A DNA stretch of 64,000 nt from a virus. Location: the IMG/VR virus record IMGVR_UViG_3300035181_001013, positions 114,797 to 178,796 of that record; one strand, 5' to 3'. The position numbers were made by a program, and so were the translations under genes. The notes under the pieces were generated by a model. The model was not told where the DNA came from and made no database searches. It saw nothing but the letters and a program-made list of their open reading frames with translations. How positions within the stretch are numbered: position 1 is the first letter of the stretch; each line of letters begins with the position of its first letter. Below, piece by piece: positions 3,954 to 9,957 of the stretch.

Positions 3954-4631
3954 TTACCAGACCGAATTTTGCACATCCATAATCAGCTTTGTAACTTGAA
4001 TTAAATCTACATCTTTTCGAAGTTGCGATGTTTTCAGCGCTTTATCCACTTCTGCGTTCATGTGTTCTGCATATTCCACGACTTGCTCATATGTCCAAGC
4101 GCCAGCTCGAATTGATAGTAATTCTTGAGCATCAGGGCGTCGAACTCTAATCACACCTTCTGTTAATGCTTCGTGACCCATCCGCAACAAACGCACAAGA
4201 TGCATTGCATGTTTAGTATCGTATCCAAATTGTTCCTCTAATGCTGATCGAGATGAATTTCGATTAAGTTTCCATTCCCAAAATTTATCATAATTTGATT
4301 TAGCGTGTTGGTAAGATGGTTCATCAAAGAACAATATACCGATTATTGTCCCATTGGATTTTCCATCACCAACATTTAAATCACCACTTCGTGTAAATAT
4401 AGTACTTCGTTTGTTGGTACTTTTTACTATATCAAAAGAAGTTGAAAATCTGTGTTGAAGTATGTATCCCTCCAAGTTTACATCAAAGTTAACACGAAAT
4501 GGGTTTAGAGACTGAGTTAAATAAATGTTGGTGTGTGTTGCTTGGCTTGGCTTACATACGCGTTTCATTTGTTCCGCTTTTGTCGCTTCAACTTGATATG
4601 TTTTAAAGAGTTGCTCTAATGATGTCACCAT
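3954..4631 (-). CDS. RlaP-type nucleotidyltransferase, C-terminal fragment (split gene)
   Basis: This 225-residue product is the C-terminal half of a predicted nucleotidyltransferase of the RlaP family (RNA-ligase-associated DNA polymerase beta-like). It carries the conserved segments YDTKHAMHLVRLLRMG and VRRPDAQELLSIR typical of the family's C-terminal helical part. It has no catalytic Asp pair of its own; those are in the fragment at 5674-6219. The two fragments read through as one protein if the endonuclease gene between them is removed (...LENKYLV / VTSLEQLFKTYQ...). Its ATG at 4631 lies inside the last codons of the endonuclease gene (29-base overlap), so the insert supplies the start codon. 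Fragment complementation would be needed for activity. Confidence 0.82.
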   Translation of the reverse strand: MVTSLEQLFKTYQVEATKAEQMKRVCKPSQATHTNIYLTQSLNPFRVNFDVNLEGYILQHRFSTSFDIVKSTNKRSTIFTRSGDLNVGDGKSNGTIIGILFFDEPSYQHAKSNYDKFWEWKLNRNSSRSALEEQFGYDTKHAMHLVRLLRMGHEALTEGVIRVRRPDAQELLSIRAGAWTYEQVVEYAEHMNAEVDKALKTSQLRKDVDLIQVTKLIMDVQNSVW

Positions 4632-5637
4632 AATTGTGTTTTAGCCTTTCAAGTTGAAATAAAGAAATTTCTAATATACCAGATTTTATATAATAATCAA
4701 TCTTGTTTTGTTTAATAATTGTTTGAATAAAATTACTAATTTGTTTAAACCCCACCAACTCACAAACCAATTGTGTATGAGTTTCTTTTAGGGTATTAAA
4801 TTTTTGCAATACTTCTACGTTTGTGTGAAGATTTTCTGGTTTAATTTCCACCAACGTGTTAGTTTCATTTATAAAAAAATCAGGTGAATATGTTCGTTTA
4901 ACTCCACTGGAATTAATATACTTGACCCGAAACTTAATGTTTTCAGCACTGACAACATTAACATTGTTTTCATACCAATACATTAAATATAACATTTCTA
5001 AACTACTACGAAAGTGTAAATTGTTAAATTTTCCATTAATCCCCCTCCCTGCTTGTTTGGATGGGGATTTCCCATATTGAGGATTTTTTTCTCCCTTTAA
5101 ACCAGTTCCAGGTCGCCTTTTTCCGAAGTTAGGATTTAATTCCCCACACAATCCAAAATTCCATGGTGTTTTTCCATATTGAGGATTTTTTTCTCCTTGT
5201 TTTTGTTGACTTAATAATTCAATCGTTTTTTCTCTGTTCACATAATATCCGTTTTGTTTTCTTTTTTGTTTTCTTTTTTGTACTTGTTCTTTTGTCAATT
5301 TTTGTCCCATAAAATGTTTACTGGTTCGGTCCGATGCCTCCTCAGAAGTTACAGCACATTTTTGACTACAAAAGCGAAGATACTTACATAAGCGGGTATT
5401 CCACATCAATTCTTTATTACATTCTGTGCATGTAGGAACATTTTTTCCGTTTTGTATATGCCACCATCTCTGAGAAAAAGAAATATCGTTGTTAAGGTAG
5501 TTAGTACTTTGTATTATTTCTTGAATTAATTGTGTATTACGCACACTTTTTATAGCTGGAGAATTAATTTTTCCATCTTTCCGTATCAGGGAGCTATTTT
5601 TAATTCGCTCAATAAAATTATTGTTAATATCTTCCAT
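4603..5637 (-). CDS. Free-standing homing endonuclease (NUMOD3 + PD-(D/E)XK)
   Basis: A 344-residue mobile endonuclease inserted in the RlaP gene. In order: a Cys4 zinc-finger-like region (C70, C73, C90, C94), a Lys/Arg-rich linker, three NUMOD3-type repeats (GEKNPQYGK, GELNPNFGK, GEKNPQYGK; about 148-190) used for DNA binding, and a C-terminal Vsr-like PD-(D/E)XK nuclease (SPDFF, D253; VEIK, E264 and K266). Such enzymes cut alleles that lack the insert and spread by recombination. The start at 5637 is preceded by GGACGG; an in-frame ATG at 5673 directly abuts the stop of the N-terminal RlaP fragment. Late-promoter-like boxes lie just upstream. The insert is nearly all coding, which leaves no room for a group I intron core. 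Confidence 0.88.
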   Translation of the reverse strand: MEDINNNFIERIKNSSLIRKDGKINSPAIKSVRNTQLIQEIIQSTNYLNNDISFSQRWWHIQNGKNVPTCTECNKELMWNTRLCKYLRFCSQKCAVTSEEASDRTSKHFMGQKLTKEQVQKRKQKRKQNGYYVNREKTIELLSQQKQGEKNPQYGKTPWNFGLCGELNPNFGKRRPGTGLKGEKNPQYGKSPSKQAGRGINGKFNNLHFRSSLEMLYLMYWYENNVNVVSAENIKFRVKYINSSGVKRTYSPDFFINETNTLVEIKPENLHTNVEVLQKFNTLKETHTQLVCELVGFKQISNFIQTIIKQNKIDYYIKSGILEISLFQLERLKHNYGDIIRATL

Positions 5638-5670
5638 TATGACCGTCCATGCCTTTAAGTTGCATAAGAG

Positions 5671-5691
5671 CATTTATACTAAGTATTTATT
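5671..5691 (-). promoter_or_regulatory. Two overlapping late-promoter-like boxes before the homing endonuclease
   Basis: The minus strand contains AATAAATA (5691-5684) followed by TATAAATG (5678-5671). Each is one base off the late consensus. They sit at the boundary of the RlaP N-terminal fragment and the endonuclease gene, so the mobile gene may be expressed late on its own, as T4 homing genes often are. Confidence 0.45.
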
Positions 5692-6219
5692 TTCTAACAT
5701 ATAATTTAAAACGTTATTTCCACAGTGTTCTTCGATAAAGTTTTTATCAATATTACCATCTTCGACAGCTCGTTTTAACAGAGAACAAAGGTCATTTAAT
5801 GGTTCTAAACTGTTTACATTTTTTTTGGAATTTTTCATTCTGGAAAGTTGAGAAAATGCATATCCAGAAGTTGCGAATGCAACCTTGGATGTTAGCAGGT
5901 TGCCTCTAGCTTGCCGGAGCAATTCGTACGCAGGAGATGACATGATGATGTCAGGTCCACTTGTCCACAACAATTCAACAACATTTGGATTTTGGTCTAC
6001 AACTAACTTTATAAATTTATTTAACTCAAAAAATTTAATATCATTTTCTGGAAGTTCCACTTCATCTACATGAAAGAAAGGTGTTCGAATACTCACAGGA
6101 TCCCCAACAAAAATTCCTCGAATGTCAATATCAGACGTAGGAAGACTTGTTCCGTATGCTCGTGAGCCTGCATACATTTCAACAATTTTATTTCGTTCTA
6201 AAACTTTTCTTTGGTCCAT
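5674..6219 (-). CDS. RlaP-type nucleotidyltransferase, N-terminal catalytic fragment
   Basis: The 181-residue product is the N-terminal, catalytic half of an RlaP-family nucleotidyltransferase. It has the GS-x-DxD signature of the polymerase beta superfamily: AGSRAYGT followed by SDIDIRG (about residues 17-34). The family is named for its association with RNA ligases and is predicted to act in RNA repair. Here the remains of an RNA ligase lie immediately upstream, and their frame overlaps this start by 22 bases. The protein stops after LENKYLV, where the homing endonuclease gene is inserted; homologues continue into the sequence found at 3954-4631. Both halves look undamaged, so the split enzyme could still assemble. 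Confidence 0.85.
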   Translation of the reverse strand: MDQRKVLERNKIVEMYAGSRAYGTSLPTSDIDIRGIFVGDPVSIRTPFFHVDEVELPENDIKFFELNKFIKLVVDQNPNVVELLWTSGPDIIMSSPAYELLRQARGNLLTSKVAFATSGYAFSQLSRMKNSKKNVNSLEPLNDLCSLLKRAVEDGNIDKNFIEEHCGNNVLNYMLENKYLV

Positions 6220-6544
6220 TGTTTTACCTTTAAAAGATTTGGTGTTATTCTTTGATAGTCCCAGTGGTGTGCTGCTGTTTGCACGTGTCCCTTCCGGACA
6301 ACTTTCCCAACATTGTTGCGAAAGTTTCCATAAGAGAAACTATCTGCTATTCTAATAACATAACCTTCATGACTAGACCAGTCATTATCAGCTACAACAG
6401 AACGAACACTTTTTCGTTGTATATTCCATCGTATATCGCTGGAACGTGTTGAATTTCAAGTATGTTGAACCATTCAATTGTATCGTTCCAACTTAAACAA
6501 TTATTTTTATCATCCCAAACTGAGAATCCTATAAAATATATCAC
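6198..6544 (-). pseudogene. Truncated, frameshifted RNA ligase relic
   Basis: The minus strand encodes the C-terminal part of a phage/bacterial RNA ligase in two frames. The first reads VIYFIGFSVWDDKNNCLSW then EIQHVPAIYDGIYNEK and stops after a frame break at an A5 run (T5 on the plus strand, 6410-6414). One extra base there restores SHEGYVIRIADSFSY, VRKGHVQT and TPNLLK, all hallmarks of the family's C-terminal domain. The N-terminal nucleotidyl-transfer region with the active-site lysine is absent, because the uvsX stop is only about 20 bases upstream. The only possible start is a GTG at 6544. The end overlaps the RlaP start, as expected of an old ligase-RlaP operon. I call it a pseudogene; a one-base sequencing error could explain the frameshift but not the truncation. 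Confidence 0.78.
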
Positions 6545-6564: not shown

Positions 6565-7650
6565 TTATTCATTTTGTTCTCCTAGTGCTTTTGCGACTCT
6601 TTTACTCTTTGATGATTTACCACTCAGATCTTCCTTTTCACCTTCCTTGAGTTCTACCTGAAGGAACGCATCAGACTTTGCTTCACAAGCCATTAATACA
6701 TCAACGGCTACACTACCAAAATCTTTTGATTGAAAATTTTTCTCTCCAAAGTAATACCAAGCACCTTTTTTCGTGAGAACCCCCAATGCTTCTGCGGCAT
6801 CCATTAAACCATTGAATGGGTCCATTCCAGTTTCATAAGGAACTTCAATTGTTACTGTCTGAAATGGTTGTGTAAAACGAGTTTTATAACCTTCACACTT
6901 CATCCTAATTCCACGGACCTCACCAGCAACATCACCTTTAAGTTTCAATTTGGTCAACAGCGTAATTTGTGATAATGAATACTTAACAGCTTCATTCACA
7001 ATCCACACCCCTTCACCGTTCGTTATATCCTGATTTCTGTACACTTGGTGAGTCACTATAATGCTTACATTTTGGTGTTTAATGGCGTGTACAAATTGCC
7101 TTAACACAGATTTTATCTGTTTGCTACGTTGACCTTGGTCACCTTTTAATACACCTCTATCAAAGTTTTCTTCTTCTGTTTCTGTCATTAACATATCCAA
7201 ACTGTCAACAACTATGAGAACTTTGGGTGCATCTGGATTACCAATACCATATTCTTTTTCGTACGATTTAAGGAAAGATGAGATATATTTCTGCATTTGT
7301 GGGATTGTATCTAATTCACCATACAAATATGAGTCTTCGCTTACATCAACTCCAATTTTTGAAACAAAACTGTTATCCAATGCGTGTTCACTGTCCCCAA
7401 CAACTACAAAAATATCTTCTTTCTGTGCTTCTCTCATACAATTACACAAAGTAAATGTTTTTCCAGAACCAGAAGGACCAGCAAAACACACAACTCTTCC
7501 TTGTGGAATTCCTCTAAAAAAACTTCCTGATATTGTTTTGTTTAAAGCATAATTTCCTGTTGAAAACCAATAGCGGGGAGGATCGGAATCTCCTAAATCT
7601 ATTCCAGCCTTCTCCATATCTTTTTCAAATTCTTTTCTAAATTTTAACAT
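6565..7650 (-). CDS. uvsX: UvsX RecA-like recombinase
   Basis: A 361-residue strand-exchange protein of the UvsX/RecA family (T4 UvsX is 391 aa). It forms filaments on single-stranded DNA and catalyses homologous pairing for recombination-dependent replication. Visible are Walker A GPSGSGKT (58-65), the Walker B strand VLIVVDSLDML, and the following SKQIKSVLRQFVHAIKH helix region. The C-terminus is acidic then basic (KEGEKEDLSGKSSKSKR). The start at 7650 has an ideal GGAG site. Translating from 7701 would run through the hairpin and ribosome binding site between gp32 and uvsX, so that start is rejected. It follows gp32 on the same strand, coupling the two partners of presynaptic filament assembly. 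Confidence 0.95.
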   Translation of the reverse strand: MLKFRKEFEKDMEKAGIDLGDSDPPRYWFSTGNYALNKTISGSFFRGIPQGRVVCFAGPSGSGKTFTLCNCMREAQKEDIFVVVGDSEHALDNSFVSKIGVDVSEDSYLYGELDTIPQMQKYISSFLKSYEKEYGIGNPDAPKVLIVVDSLDMLMTETEEENFDRGVLKGDQGQRSKQIKSVLRQFVHAIKHQNVSIIVTHQVYRNQDITNGEGVWIVNEAVKYSLSQITLLTKLKLKGDVAGEVRGIRMKCEGYKTRFTQPFQTVTIEVPYETGMDPFNGLMDAAEALGVLTKKGAWYYFGEKNFQSKDFGSVAVDVLMACEAKSDAFLQVELKEGEKEDLSGKSSKSKRVAKALGEQNE

Positions 7651-7671
7651 AAAAATCTCCAGTAGTGAATT

Positions 7672-7692
7672 GGGGTGCCTAAAAAGCACCCC
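7672..7692 (-). terminator. Stem-loop between gp32 and uvsX
   Basis: A perfect 7-bp GC-rich stem (GGGGTGC/GCACCCC) with a 7-base loop lies between the gp32 stop and the uvsX ribosome binding site. On the minus strand it is not followed by a run of U, so it is more likely an mRNA 3'-end stabiliser, attenuator or processing site than a strong intrinsic terminator. Confidence 0.5.
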
Positions 7693-7704
7693 GTAACTCA
7701 AAAA

Positions 7705-8649
7705 TTATTCTGCTTTTGTTTTACGACGAGCGCGCAAACGTGCTAGAATAGCTTCTGGATCTTCTTCAGAATCACCATCAGAACTGCTTACTGGTTCTTC
7801 TTTTGTTTGAACTGGTTCTGGAGTCTTTGCTTTCGTTGACTTTGACGCAGCTTCTTTTACAGAGCCAACTTTTTCAGTAAGAACGTCATCTTCGTCACTA
7901 GAGTCGTATCTATCGCTATCCGAACTATCACCAATGTTATATTCCTCGCCTGTCATTGCAGCCTTTAACATAGCCTCAACTTTATCAACACCTGGGTGTT
8001 TTGGAAGAAGAGTTGAAAGATCGATGATAGACGACGACACATGTTCAACTGTGTCTTCATCCAAATCGCTTGGATTTTTTGCAAACGAGCTGCGCGAATA
8101 ATCAGCATAATCACCAGACTGGCGTTTCTTAATTATAAAGTTTGTTCCATTTTCGTATAGATAAGGAGGATATTCAAGATCACCACTTTCAAACGCATCC
8201 TTAATAGATTCATAAAGTTTGTTACCAAGAGCCAGATAACGAACCTTCCCTTCGTGTGTTTCTCCGGTATCTTTATCGACCGGAAGTGGATCACTAATTA
8301 TGAGAGCCTGAGCGAGATACTGTTTCTTGCGATAGTATTTCTTTCCATTATCTTTATCGTCTTTCTTATAAAATGCTGTAGAAACCTTACAAATCGGACA
8401 ATCTTCTCCATACATTTTTAAGCATGGGACGGATTTCTTTTCTCCATTAATTTCTAATGAATGCATCATTTTTTCAACTAAAAATCCTCTTGGATTGTCT
8501 TCATTCTTGTCTGGGAGAATACGAACTATTGATTGTTCACCAATTTCCATATTCCAGAATGGGTAATAATTATTTTGACCACTACCACCTTCGTTTGTAT
8601 CTGCTTTTTTGAATTGTGCCCGTAGGGCCTCCATTGAGAGTTGAGCCAT
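7705..8649 (-). CDS. 32: gp32 single-stranded DNA-binding protein
   Basis: A 314-residue gp32 homologue (T4: 301 aa). It coats single-stranded DNA in replication, recombination and repair and contacts the polymerase, UvsX and UvsY through its acidic tail. The zinc site is visible as His-x12-Cys-x7-Cys-x2-Cys (HSLEIN...VPCLKMYGEDCPIC), close to the T4 spacing of His-x12-Cys-x9-Cys-x2-Cys. The C-terminal third is acidic and Ser-rich (SSDSDRYDSSDEDD, DGDSEEDPEA), the expected protein-interaction tail, and ends with a basic patch. The start at 8649 has an AGGAG site; an upstream in-frame start at 8718 would add an unlikely Lys-rich leader. Confidence 0.95.
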   Translation of the reverse strand: MAQLSMEALRAQFKKADTNEGGSGQNNYYPFWNMEIGEQSIVRILPDKNEDNPRGFLVEKMMHSLEINGEKKSVPCLKMYGEDCPICKVSTAFYKKDDKDNGKKYYRKKQYLAQALIISDPLPVDKDTGETHEGKVRYLALGNKLYESIKDAFESGDLEYPPYLYENGTNFIIKKRQSGDYADYSRSSFAKNPSDLDEDTVEHVSSSIIDLSTLLPKHPGVDKVEAMLKAAMTGEEYNIGDSSDSDRYDSSDEDDVLTEKVGSVKEAASKSTKAKTPEPVQTKEEPVSSSDGDSEEDPEAILARLRARRKTKAE

Positions 8650-8794
8650 TGTTGTTCTCCTTTTCGCTTTTCTCGTTATATCTACATTTAAGTAGTTTTT
8701 CTTCTTTTTAGTTTTCACTTCTAATATAATACAAATTATTTTAATTCACATCAAGGGTTATGATAAAATATATTTCAATATCTTATCACATGAG

Positions 8795-8802
8795 TATTTA
8801 TG
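8795..8802 (-). promoter_or_regulatory. Late-promoter-like box CATAAATA upstream of gp32
   Basis: The minus strand reads CATAAATACTC, one base off the late consensus, in the 180-base gap before the gp32 start. An imperfect hairpin (about 8760-8790) follows in the leader. Both are compatible with late expression and regulated translation of gp32, but the leader function is inference. Confidence 0.4.
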
Positions 8803-8829
8803 ATGTTCCCCTCAACAGACACCAATAAA

Positions 8830-9480
8830 TTAATGTCTTTTTTCCCAAACCACTTCAAAGTCTGGACATTCTAAAAACATTTGTGGGTCCAAATTTCCGT
8901 CTGCTGAAATCATTGCTTCAAAGTTTGCAAAGTTTGTTAAATAATCTGGGTCGCCTTTCAAAGCATCACGAATCAACTCCACACAAGAAAGAGCGTTGTC
9001 ATCTGCAAGATTGAATAAAGTATCATAAGGACGTCCCAGATATGTTTTCGATGCGTCTAAAACTGCTGTCCAATCTGATAAAGGCATATATTTGGGTTTT
9101 AATAATGCAACTGAACTAGTTTGATTATCAAATACAGTACTAAATCCTGAATAATGAACACCAGTTCCCGTAGCTTCGATAAACCTATAACTATCATCCG
9201 ATTCTACTGTATCTTCAAGGTTCATGAATACATGACCGTAATACCCTCTTTTTCCAGTTAACACACAATGAGCAATTTCTATGGCGTAAGTGGACAAGTG
9301 TCCATCGTGTCTTGAAGCAATTATGTAATAGTTATCTACTAACAATTTTCGAATTTCGTCAAATTCTTCTGGAGTTAACGTTTTTTTAGTAACCCAATTA
9401 ATTTTTCCAATTGTAGTCGAAATGAAATTTTTTATATTATTCCACGTTGTTGTTAACACACATTTTGCTTTTGCCCACAT
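8830..9480 (-). CDS. Permuted papain-like (YiiX/NlpC-P60 type) amidase or protease
   Basis: The 216-residue product has the order of active-site elements typical of circularly permuted papain-like enzymes (YiiX, family C92): a catalytic His in YYGHVFMN (His83) followed by the Cys in ALSCVELIRDAL (Cys166). A conserved GRPYDTLFN segment lies just before the Cys. Members of this group hydrolyse amide or thioester bonds in peptidoglycan or lipids. The N-terminus has a weakly hydrophobic stretch but no clear signal peptide. It is the last gene of the fibre cassette, so a role in wall remodelling at entry or lysis is plausible. The substrate is unknown. Confidence 0.72.
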   Translation of the reverse strand: MWAKAKCVLTTTWNNIKNFISTTIGKINWVTKKTLTPEEFDEIRKLLVDNYYIIASRHDGHLSTYAIEIAHCVLTGKRGYYGHVFMNLEDTVESDDSYRFIEATGTGVHYSGFSTVFDNQTSSVALLKPKYMPLSDWTAVLDASKTYLGRPYDTLFNLADDNALSCVELIRDALKGDPDYLTNFANFEAMISADGNLDPQMFLECPDFEVVWEKRH

Positions 9481-9495
9481 TACGTTCTCCTTATA

Positions 9496-9957
9496 TTATG
9501 CCGCCGGAACTTCTTCTGGTTGAATTGGAGCAGTTAAAATAGTATTTGCTCTACCCGGTCCAATTAATCCATACGTTTCAAGAGCCTGAACTCCAGCAAT
9601 CGTGTCTGGACGTGCAAGATTTACATTTGACGCATTTGACATATCTGCAGCCATTACCCGAAGGGCTGCAGATAATTGTCTTGTTGCTGCTGGTGCTGTG
9701 GGGTTGTCTATTGACGCTAAATCAATTGTAACTTTTTCTGTTTGTGTGAAACGATTTCTAAATGCTAGCTTTGTGATTATTGTGTTATTTACTGTAACAT
9801 CTGGGTTAGCACCAATCCATGCATCTAGTGTTGCTTGATCGGGAATTGGAGAACCTGCATCCCAAACGAGATCAGAATACACAGAACCATCACCAAGTGC
9901 GTGACACTGAACTGCTGGGAAACCGATTCCAATTGCTTGTATATACGTCATTGCCAT
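9496..9957 (-). CDS. Hypothetical protein of the tail-fibre cassette
   Basis: The 153-residue product is not firmly recognised. The N-terminal segment (AVQCHALGDGSVYSDLVW) followed by IPDQATLDAWI resembles small proteins encoded beside phage tail fibre genes. The middle is Ala/Asp-rich and helical. It has a late-promoter-like box 22 bases upstream of its start and sits directly after the short fibre genes, so it may be a fibre-associated or baseplate accessory protein. This is inference from context. Confidence 0.65.
   Translation of the reverse strand: MAMTYIQAIGIGFPAVQCHALGDGSVYSDLVWDAGSPIPDQATLDAWIGANPDVTVNNTIITKLAFRNRFTQTEKVTIDLASIDNPTAPAATRQLSAALRVMAADMSNASNVNLARPDTIAGVQALETYGLIGPGRANTILTAPIQPEEVPAA

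Follow-up and report, generated by a model that had tools for sequence, protein, structure and literature searches.

Introduction

To our knowledge, there are few studies of genes that an endonuclease gene has split where neither an intron nor an intein is present. In Aeromonas phage Aeh1, nrdA is divided into two open reading frames (ORFs) by mobE, no intron is present, and uninterrupted homologues are found in related phages (PMC2988022). Endonuclease genes are also associated with the split topoisomerase genes 39/60 of T4 (mobA) and, in Aeromonas phage 25, with the split gene 43A/43B (PMC2988022). Regulation has been described for I-TevI: the operator is similar to the homing site in sequence and shares DNA with the late promoter (PMC2988022).

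The locus described here lies in a window of 64,000 nucleotides (the whole stretch of DNA analyzed) taken from a virus record of 178,796 bases that belongs to a T4-like phage. It concerns RlaP, a probable RNA-repair enzyme that is believed to work alongside RNA ligases (PMC7824862). We consider it likely that the rlaP gene of this phage has been split by a selfish homing-endonuclease gene (HEG) of the PD-(D/E)XK/NUMOD3 kind. As in nrdA/mobE, a phage gene occupies two ORFs around an endonuclease gene, the relatives are intact, and neither an intron nor an intein is found; mobE has its own regulation, and the HEG of the window is preceded by a late-promoter-like box. In contrast, MobE is an HNH enzyme, whereas the HEG product appears to combine a PD-(D/E)XK nuclease domain with NUMOD3 repeats. 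The start codon of the second rlaP half lies inside the HEG, the halves carry extra segments and have lost a conserved motif, and their reassembly is proposed from sequence, all of which sets the locus apart from nrdA/mobE. The T4 39/60-mobA and phage 25 43A/43B arrangements are likewise split genes of T4-like phages but involve other genes and other endonuclease families. Similar to I-TevI, a late-promoter-like box and a homing-site-like sequence lie just upstream of the endonuclease start, although here the operator is a sequence resemblance of modest significance and the homing site a presumed one.

Fractured genes with split inteins, in which an endonuclease gene lies between the gene pieces, were reportedly described by Dassa and colleagues in 2009 (cited in PMC10448857). 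There too the gene is in two pieces around an endonuclease gene, but no intein halves were recognized at the break in the window. A split that recurs in a further gene family and has uninterrupted alleles close by would allow tests of gene survival after splitting, and the rlaP case could show whether an invader brings its own damage repair and what a phage RlaP enzyme requires.

Layout of the Split rlaP Locus

Three consecutive ORFs occupy the minus strand, A (6219-5674), HEG (5673-4603), and B (4631-3954). A reading of the sequence made without database searches (the sequence-only reading) had placed three ORFs here, and family matches now support the identity of each. The features are as follows.

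6228..6538, minus strand: RNA ligase relic; C-terminal part only, frameshifted; PHROG 24030 is matched by two separate pieces that are not in one frame
5674-6219, minus strand: N-terminal half of RlaP (A), 181 residues; Pfam RlaP PF10127, E = 2.6e-11; PHROG 388, E = 1.4e-33
5842..6219, minus strand: N-terminal core of RlaP (A residues 1-126); Pol-beta nucleotidyltransferase domain, GS..AYGT..SD.D.RG
5674..5841, minus strand: A tail (residues 127-181 and stop codon); helical extension where intact RlaPs have KGHNKWINNP
5671..5678, minus strand: TATAAATG, late-promoter-like box; overlaps the stop codon of A and lies 41 nt ahead of ATG 5637 of the HEG
5630..5674, minus strand: possible operator, or a fossil; the rlaP codons for (Y)AxSQLKRIKGHN(KW) recur here in degenerate form, immediately ahead of the HEG start
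4603..5637, minus strand: homing-endonuclease-like gene; open from the ATG at 5673, probable start at the ATG at 5637
5356..5430, minus strand: zinc-finger-like CxxC...CxxxC; C82, C85, C102, and C106 invariant in both homologues
5074..5232, minus strand: NUMOD3 repeats (DNA-binding); PF07460, E = 1.2e-7, in two stretches; DNA repeats spaced by 51 nt
4834..5013, minus strand: PD-(D/E)XK-type nuclease domain; SSLE226 ... SPD265F ... E276-I-K278
4603..4631, minus strand: HEG/B overlap, 29 nt; the HEG end, NYGDIIRATL, encodes the start codon of B
3954-4631, minus strand: C-terminal half of RlaP (B), 225 residues; PHROG 388, E = 1.6e-28, C-terminal part of the profile
4542..4631, minus strand: B head (residues 1-30); common to the B half of contig L023, missing from intact relatives in the clade
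3954..4541, minus strand: C-terminal part of RlaP; PHROG 388; conserved core begins at B residue 106

The Pol-beta nucleotidyltransferase signature of RlaP (PF10127), GS..YGT..SD.D.RG, is present, and neither half contains a stop codon or frameshift. In the window, the ribosome-binding site of B has an unfavorable position, which counts against the proposed arrangement. The neighborhood is T4-like, with uvsX and a UvsY-like gene by PHROG assignment and a helicase ORF that is read as uvsW.

Comparison with Intact Relatives

RlaP is encoded by one intact ORF in annotated phages and IMG/VR contigs (e.g., L001, L022, and L060). A pattern search covered 81 RlaP loci; 73 (62 distinct) are single ORFs spanning both halves, and for the eight that escaped the pattern, full-length matches are listed for the loci or their contigs. 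The nearest intact relatives, L001 and L002, have an RlaP of 353 residues and the same neighbors as the window. In a tree of the core, the window pairs with L001 (support 0.91) within an intact clade that includes L022 and L060 (1.0).

DNA homology between the window and L001 ends at 5849 (75% identity down to this point) and restarts at 4297 (73% from there on). The stretch between these break points is ∼1552 bp in the window and ∼348 bp in L001, longer than the 1.0-kb insert estimated from the sequence alone. Nor is the proposed smooth join of the halves supported: compared with the intact RlaPs of the clade, an A tail of ∼50 residues and a B head of ∼27 residues have been added, and KGHNKWINNP is missing. 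These three differences depart from a simple insertion that leaves both halves otherwise complete, a yardstick that is our own and not an established requirement for arrangements of the nrdA/mobE kind.

The motif R-x-[KRT]-x-H-x-x-[WYF] is found in 72 of the 73 intact ORFs, and by eye the remaining one (L125, RINGHNKW) also has the histidine and tryptophan. H131 and W134 of the KGHNKW motif are absent from the split proteins of both the window and L023, and R-x-K-x-H-x-x-W does not follow the first domain in A of either. This motif is near-universal among the RlaPs compared here and is not a published defining feature of the family. The AlphaFold model of L001 RlaP has a fold similar to that of kanamycin nucleotidyltransferase (best Foldseek E = 1.9e-3). 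In this model the KGHNKWINNP segment is found where helix 113-136 ends and in the loop after it, so that it links the nucleotidyltransferase domain to the remainder of the protein. In L001 and L002, the nearest intact relatives, large free-standing endonuclease genes border the rlaP region (L001:1997-3694 and L002:6077-7546).

A Second Split rlaP

The same order of genes is present in an independent contig, L023 (A′, 7336-7899; endonuclease, 7939-8952; B′, 8915-9616), so the arrangement is not an assembly accident. The two HEGs are 56% identical. Initiation of B at an ATG within the last HEG codons, as read initially, is confirmed in the window and occurs at the same place in L023, where the overlap is 38 nt and the HEG residues NYGDIIRAT are identical. 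In the core tree, L023 groups with the intact L030 (support 0.93). Each case is thus nested among intact relatives and the arrangement is present in two lineages, by either separate invasion or transfer. The recurrence in L023 and the intact relatives around both cases uphold the central proposal of the sequence-only reading, that rlaP is split by a homing-endonuclease-like gene.

Both added segments are common to the window and L023 (shuffle z of 24.7 for the A tail and 10.6 for the B head). Differences between the two tails at the three codon positions are 0.48/0.28/0.70, which marks constraint at the protein level. A search with the tail alone returned L023 as the sole match. Pairwise, the window tail shows weak links to the tail of L056 (z 6.5) and to slurp01 (z 4.5); the L023 tail alone gave no such link to this long-form insertion, and comparison of the window and L023 tails with the long-form insertion of jumbo phages was not significant by HMM or hhalign.

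The Endonuclease Gene and Its Upstream Region

The HEG had been thought to start directly after the TAA of A. An adjacent ATG does exist at 5673, but alignment with L023 places the probable start at 5637, 36 nt past the stop codon of A. The nuclease domain matches TnsA-like PF08722 (E = 0.0016), DUF7487, and PHROG 218 (E = 6e-9), and E226, D265, E276, and K278 are kept in the L023 HEG. Taken with our reading of the motifs, these weak domain matches fit a PD-(D/E)XK class. No solved structure was matched by the HEG. It is single-copy in the 178,796-base record, and single-sequence and profile searches of viral contigs found L023 as the only homologue; one weak match was obtained in annotated phages and none in genome contigs. 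Because just two loci carry the HEG, we infer its mobility, from its distribution and the boundaries of DNA homology: the endonuclease would cut an uninterrupted rlaP allele and its gene would be copied in. By eye, a near-identical CAACTT(G)AAAGGC (minus strand) is seen at both ends of the HEG (5651-5663 and ∼4643-4655); this direct repeat was not listed by the repeat search.

Across both strands of the window, TATAAATA, the late motif of T4, is enriched (16 occurrences versus 6.3 expected) and is often located 29-39 nt upstream of ORFs, while the variant before the HEG, TATAAATG, is itself not enriched in the window. L023 carries GATAAATA at the same distance before the HEG ATG. The 45 bases upstream of the HEG ATG are identical at 30 positions between the window and L023 without a gap (P = 4.5e-4 against a 41% background). 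The HEG seems to have a late promoter of its own.

The segment at 5630..5674 is the top-scoring of 127,936 sites in the window for the rlaP codons around QLKRIKGHNKW. Correction for the choice of codon window and for place gives p = 0.007-0.08, and the equivalent copy in L023 alone is not significant; for these reasons the degenerate motif is a lead that faintly hints at an operator like that of I-TevI.

Proposed Mechanism

The target of the endonuclease would be an rlaP without the insert, and the cut would probably fall at or close to the conserved codons for QLKRIKGHNKW. Upon repair from an occupied copy, the HEG would be brought in along with the A tail and the B head, the tail and head taking the place of that stretch. 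The HEG seems to be transcribed from a late promoter of its own. Because the start codon of B lies within the last HEG codons, deletion of the HEG would silence B. A and B would be made as separate proteins, with the helical tail and the head forming part of the contact between them. A bolder proposal, which we regard as rather improbable in its entirety, is that HEG, tail, and head constitute one mobile cassette that cuts the motif it replaces, carries matched helical pieces for reassembly, ties the start of B to the HEG, and controls itself through a target copy at its own late promoter.

Possible Function of the Halves

Among 61 near-invariant core residues, one is changed in the window, as in the intact L001; five are changed in L023, and 0-5 in intact relatives. 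The identity of the window core to outgroups is the same as for intact relatives. Survival of the core residues in both halves makes reassembly into an active enzyme plausible, and because these residues are conserved, association with retention of some function is slightly favored. The AlphaFold model of A is poor (mean pLDDT 59.7), with the tail predicted to be helical (pLDDT about 78-85).

The RNA ligase relic lies directly upstream of rlaP, the neighboring ligase gene thus being a pseudogene, and no other RNA ligase copy was found in the genome record. Selection on RlaP may therefore be relaxed. This, like the loss of the KGHNKW motif from both split proteins, speaks against function of the halves. 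Yet the partial contigs L001 and L002 yielded no RNA ligase, and their RlaP is intact. At the place of the relic, L060 has a ligase ORF of 209 residues.

Alternative Explanations

Conserved cores could also be seen if the HEG had entered rlaP recently and the gene were now in decay. It is possible, though we doubt it, that the HEG broke an rlaP no longer needed after its RNA ligase partner was wrecked and that the halves are non-functional leftovers. The truncated and frameshifted ligase with no second copy in the record would be expected from such decay, as would loss of GHxKW, a motif that every intact RlaP examined possesses. Against it, both halves remain open, the core has changed no more than that of the intact L001, the A tail is constrained as a protein between the window and L023, and L001 and L002 keep RlaP intact with no ligase found in their partial records. 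We regard splitting by a selfish HEG, into halves that may still associate, as the more likely reading.

Endonuclease ORFs are often located in phage introns, and the non-homologous stretch, at ∼1.5 kb, is larger than first estimated, yet a group I or group II intron whose splicing leaves RlaP whole is very unlikely: no Rfam match to either group was obtained at the gathering or a permissive threshold, in agreement with the initial exclusion of a group I intron; the tail and head show protein-level homology to L023; and the missing codons for KGHNKWINNP would not be regained at any junction. Joining of the halves by protein trans-splicing, as in a fractured gene with a split intein and an endonuclease gene, is more improbable still. 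The arrangement is known in phages and intein-like inserts occur in RlaP (L008 and L056) and UvsW (L023 and L026) of related phages, but the A tail and B head have no Pfam intein domain, by reading they lack a Cys/Ser N-terminal block and an HN-C/S/T end, and the A tail weakly resembles the helical insertion of long-form RlaPs. Finally, A and B are separate ORFs in both the window and L023. That they are normally separate genes in this phage group, with an endonuclease gene merely between them, is scarcely credible given the 73 single-ORF loci among the 81, the full-length matches listed for the other eight or their contigs, and the intact nearest relatives on both branches.

Other Interruptions of RlaP and UvsW

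L056 and L057 have a long-form RlaP with an interruption in the region where the rlaP of the window is split. The interrupting sequence is a short ORF, which we read as a GIY-YIG-like fragment, and an in-frame insert in the C-terminal part of this RlaP reads as an intein; Pfam named neither the ORF nor the insert. Intein-like in-frame inserts in RlaP occur at FGYD|C...SN|SKHA in distant phages (L056:9402-11225 and L008:1991-4324, also L057 and L009), a second insertion site within rlaP. In UvsW, intein-like in-frame inserts are located at the GAGK nucleotide-binding loop (L023:10941-12160 and L026:10703-11860).
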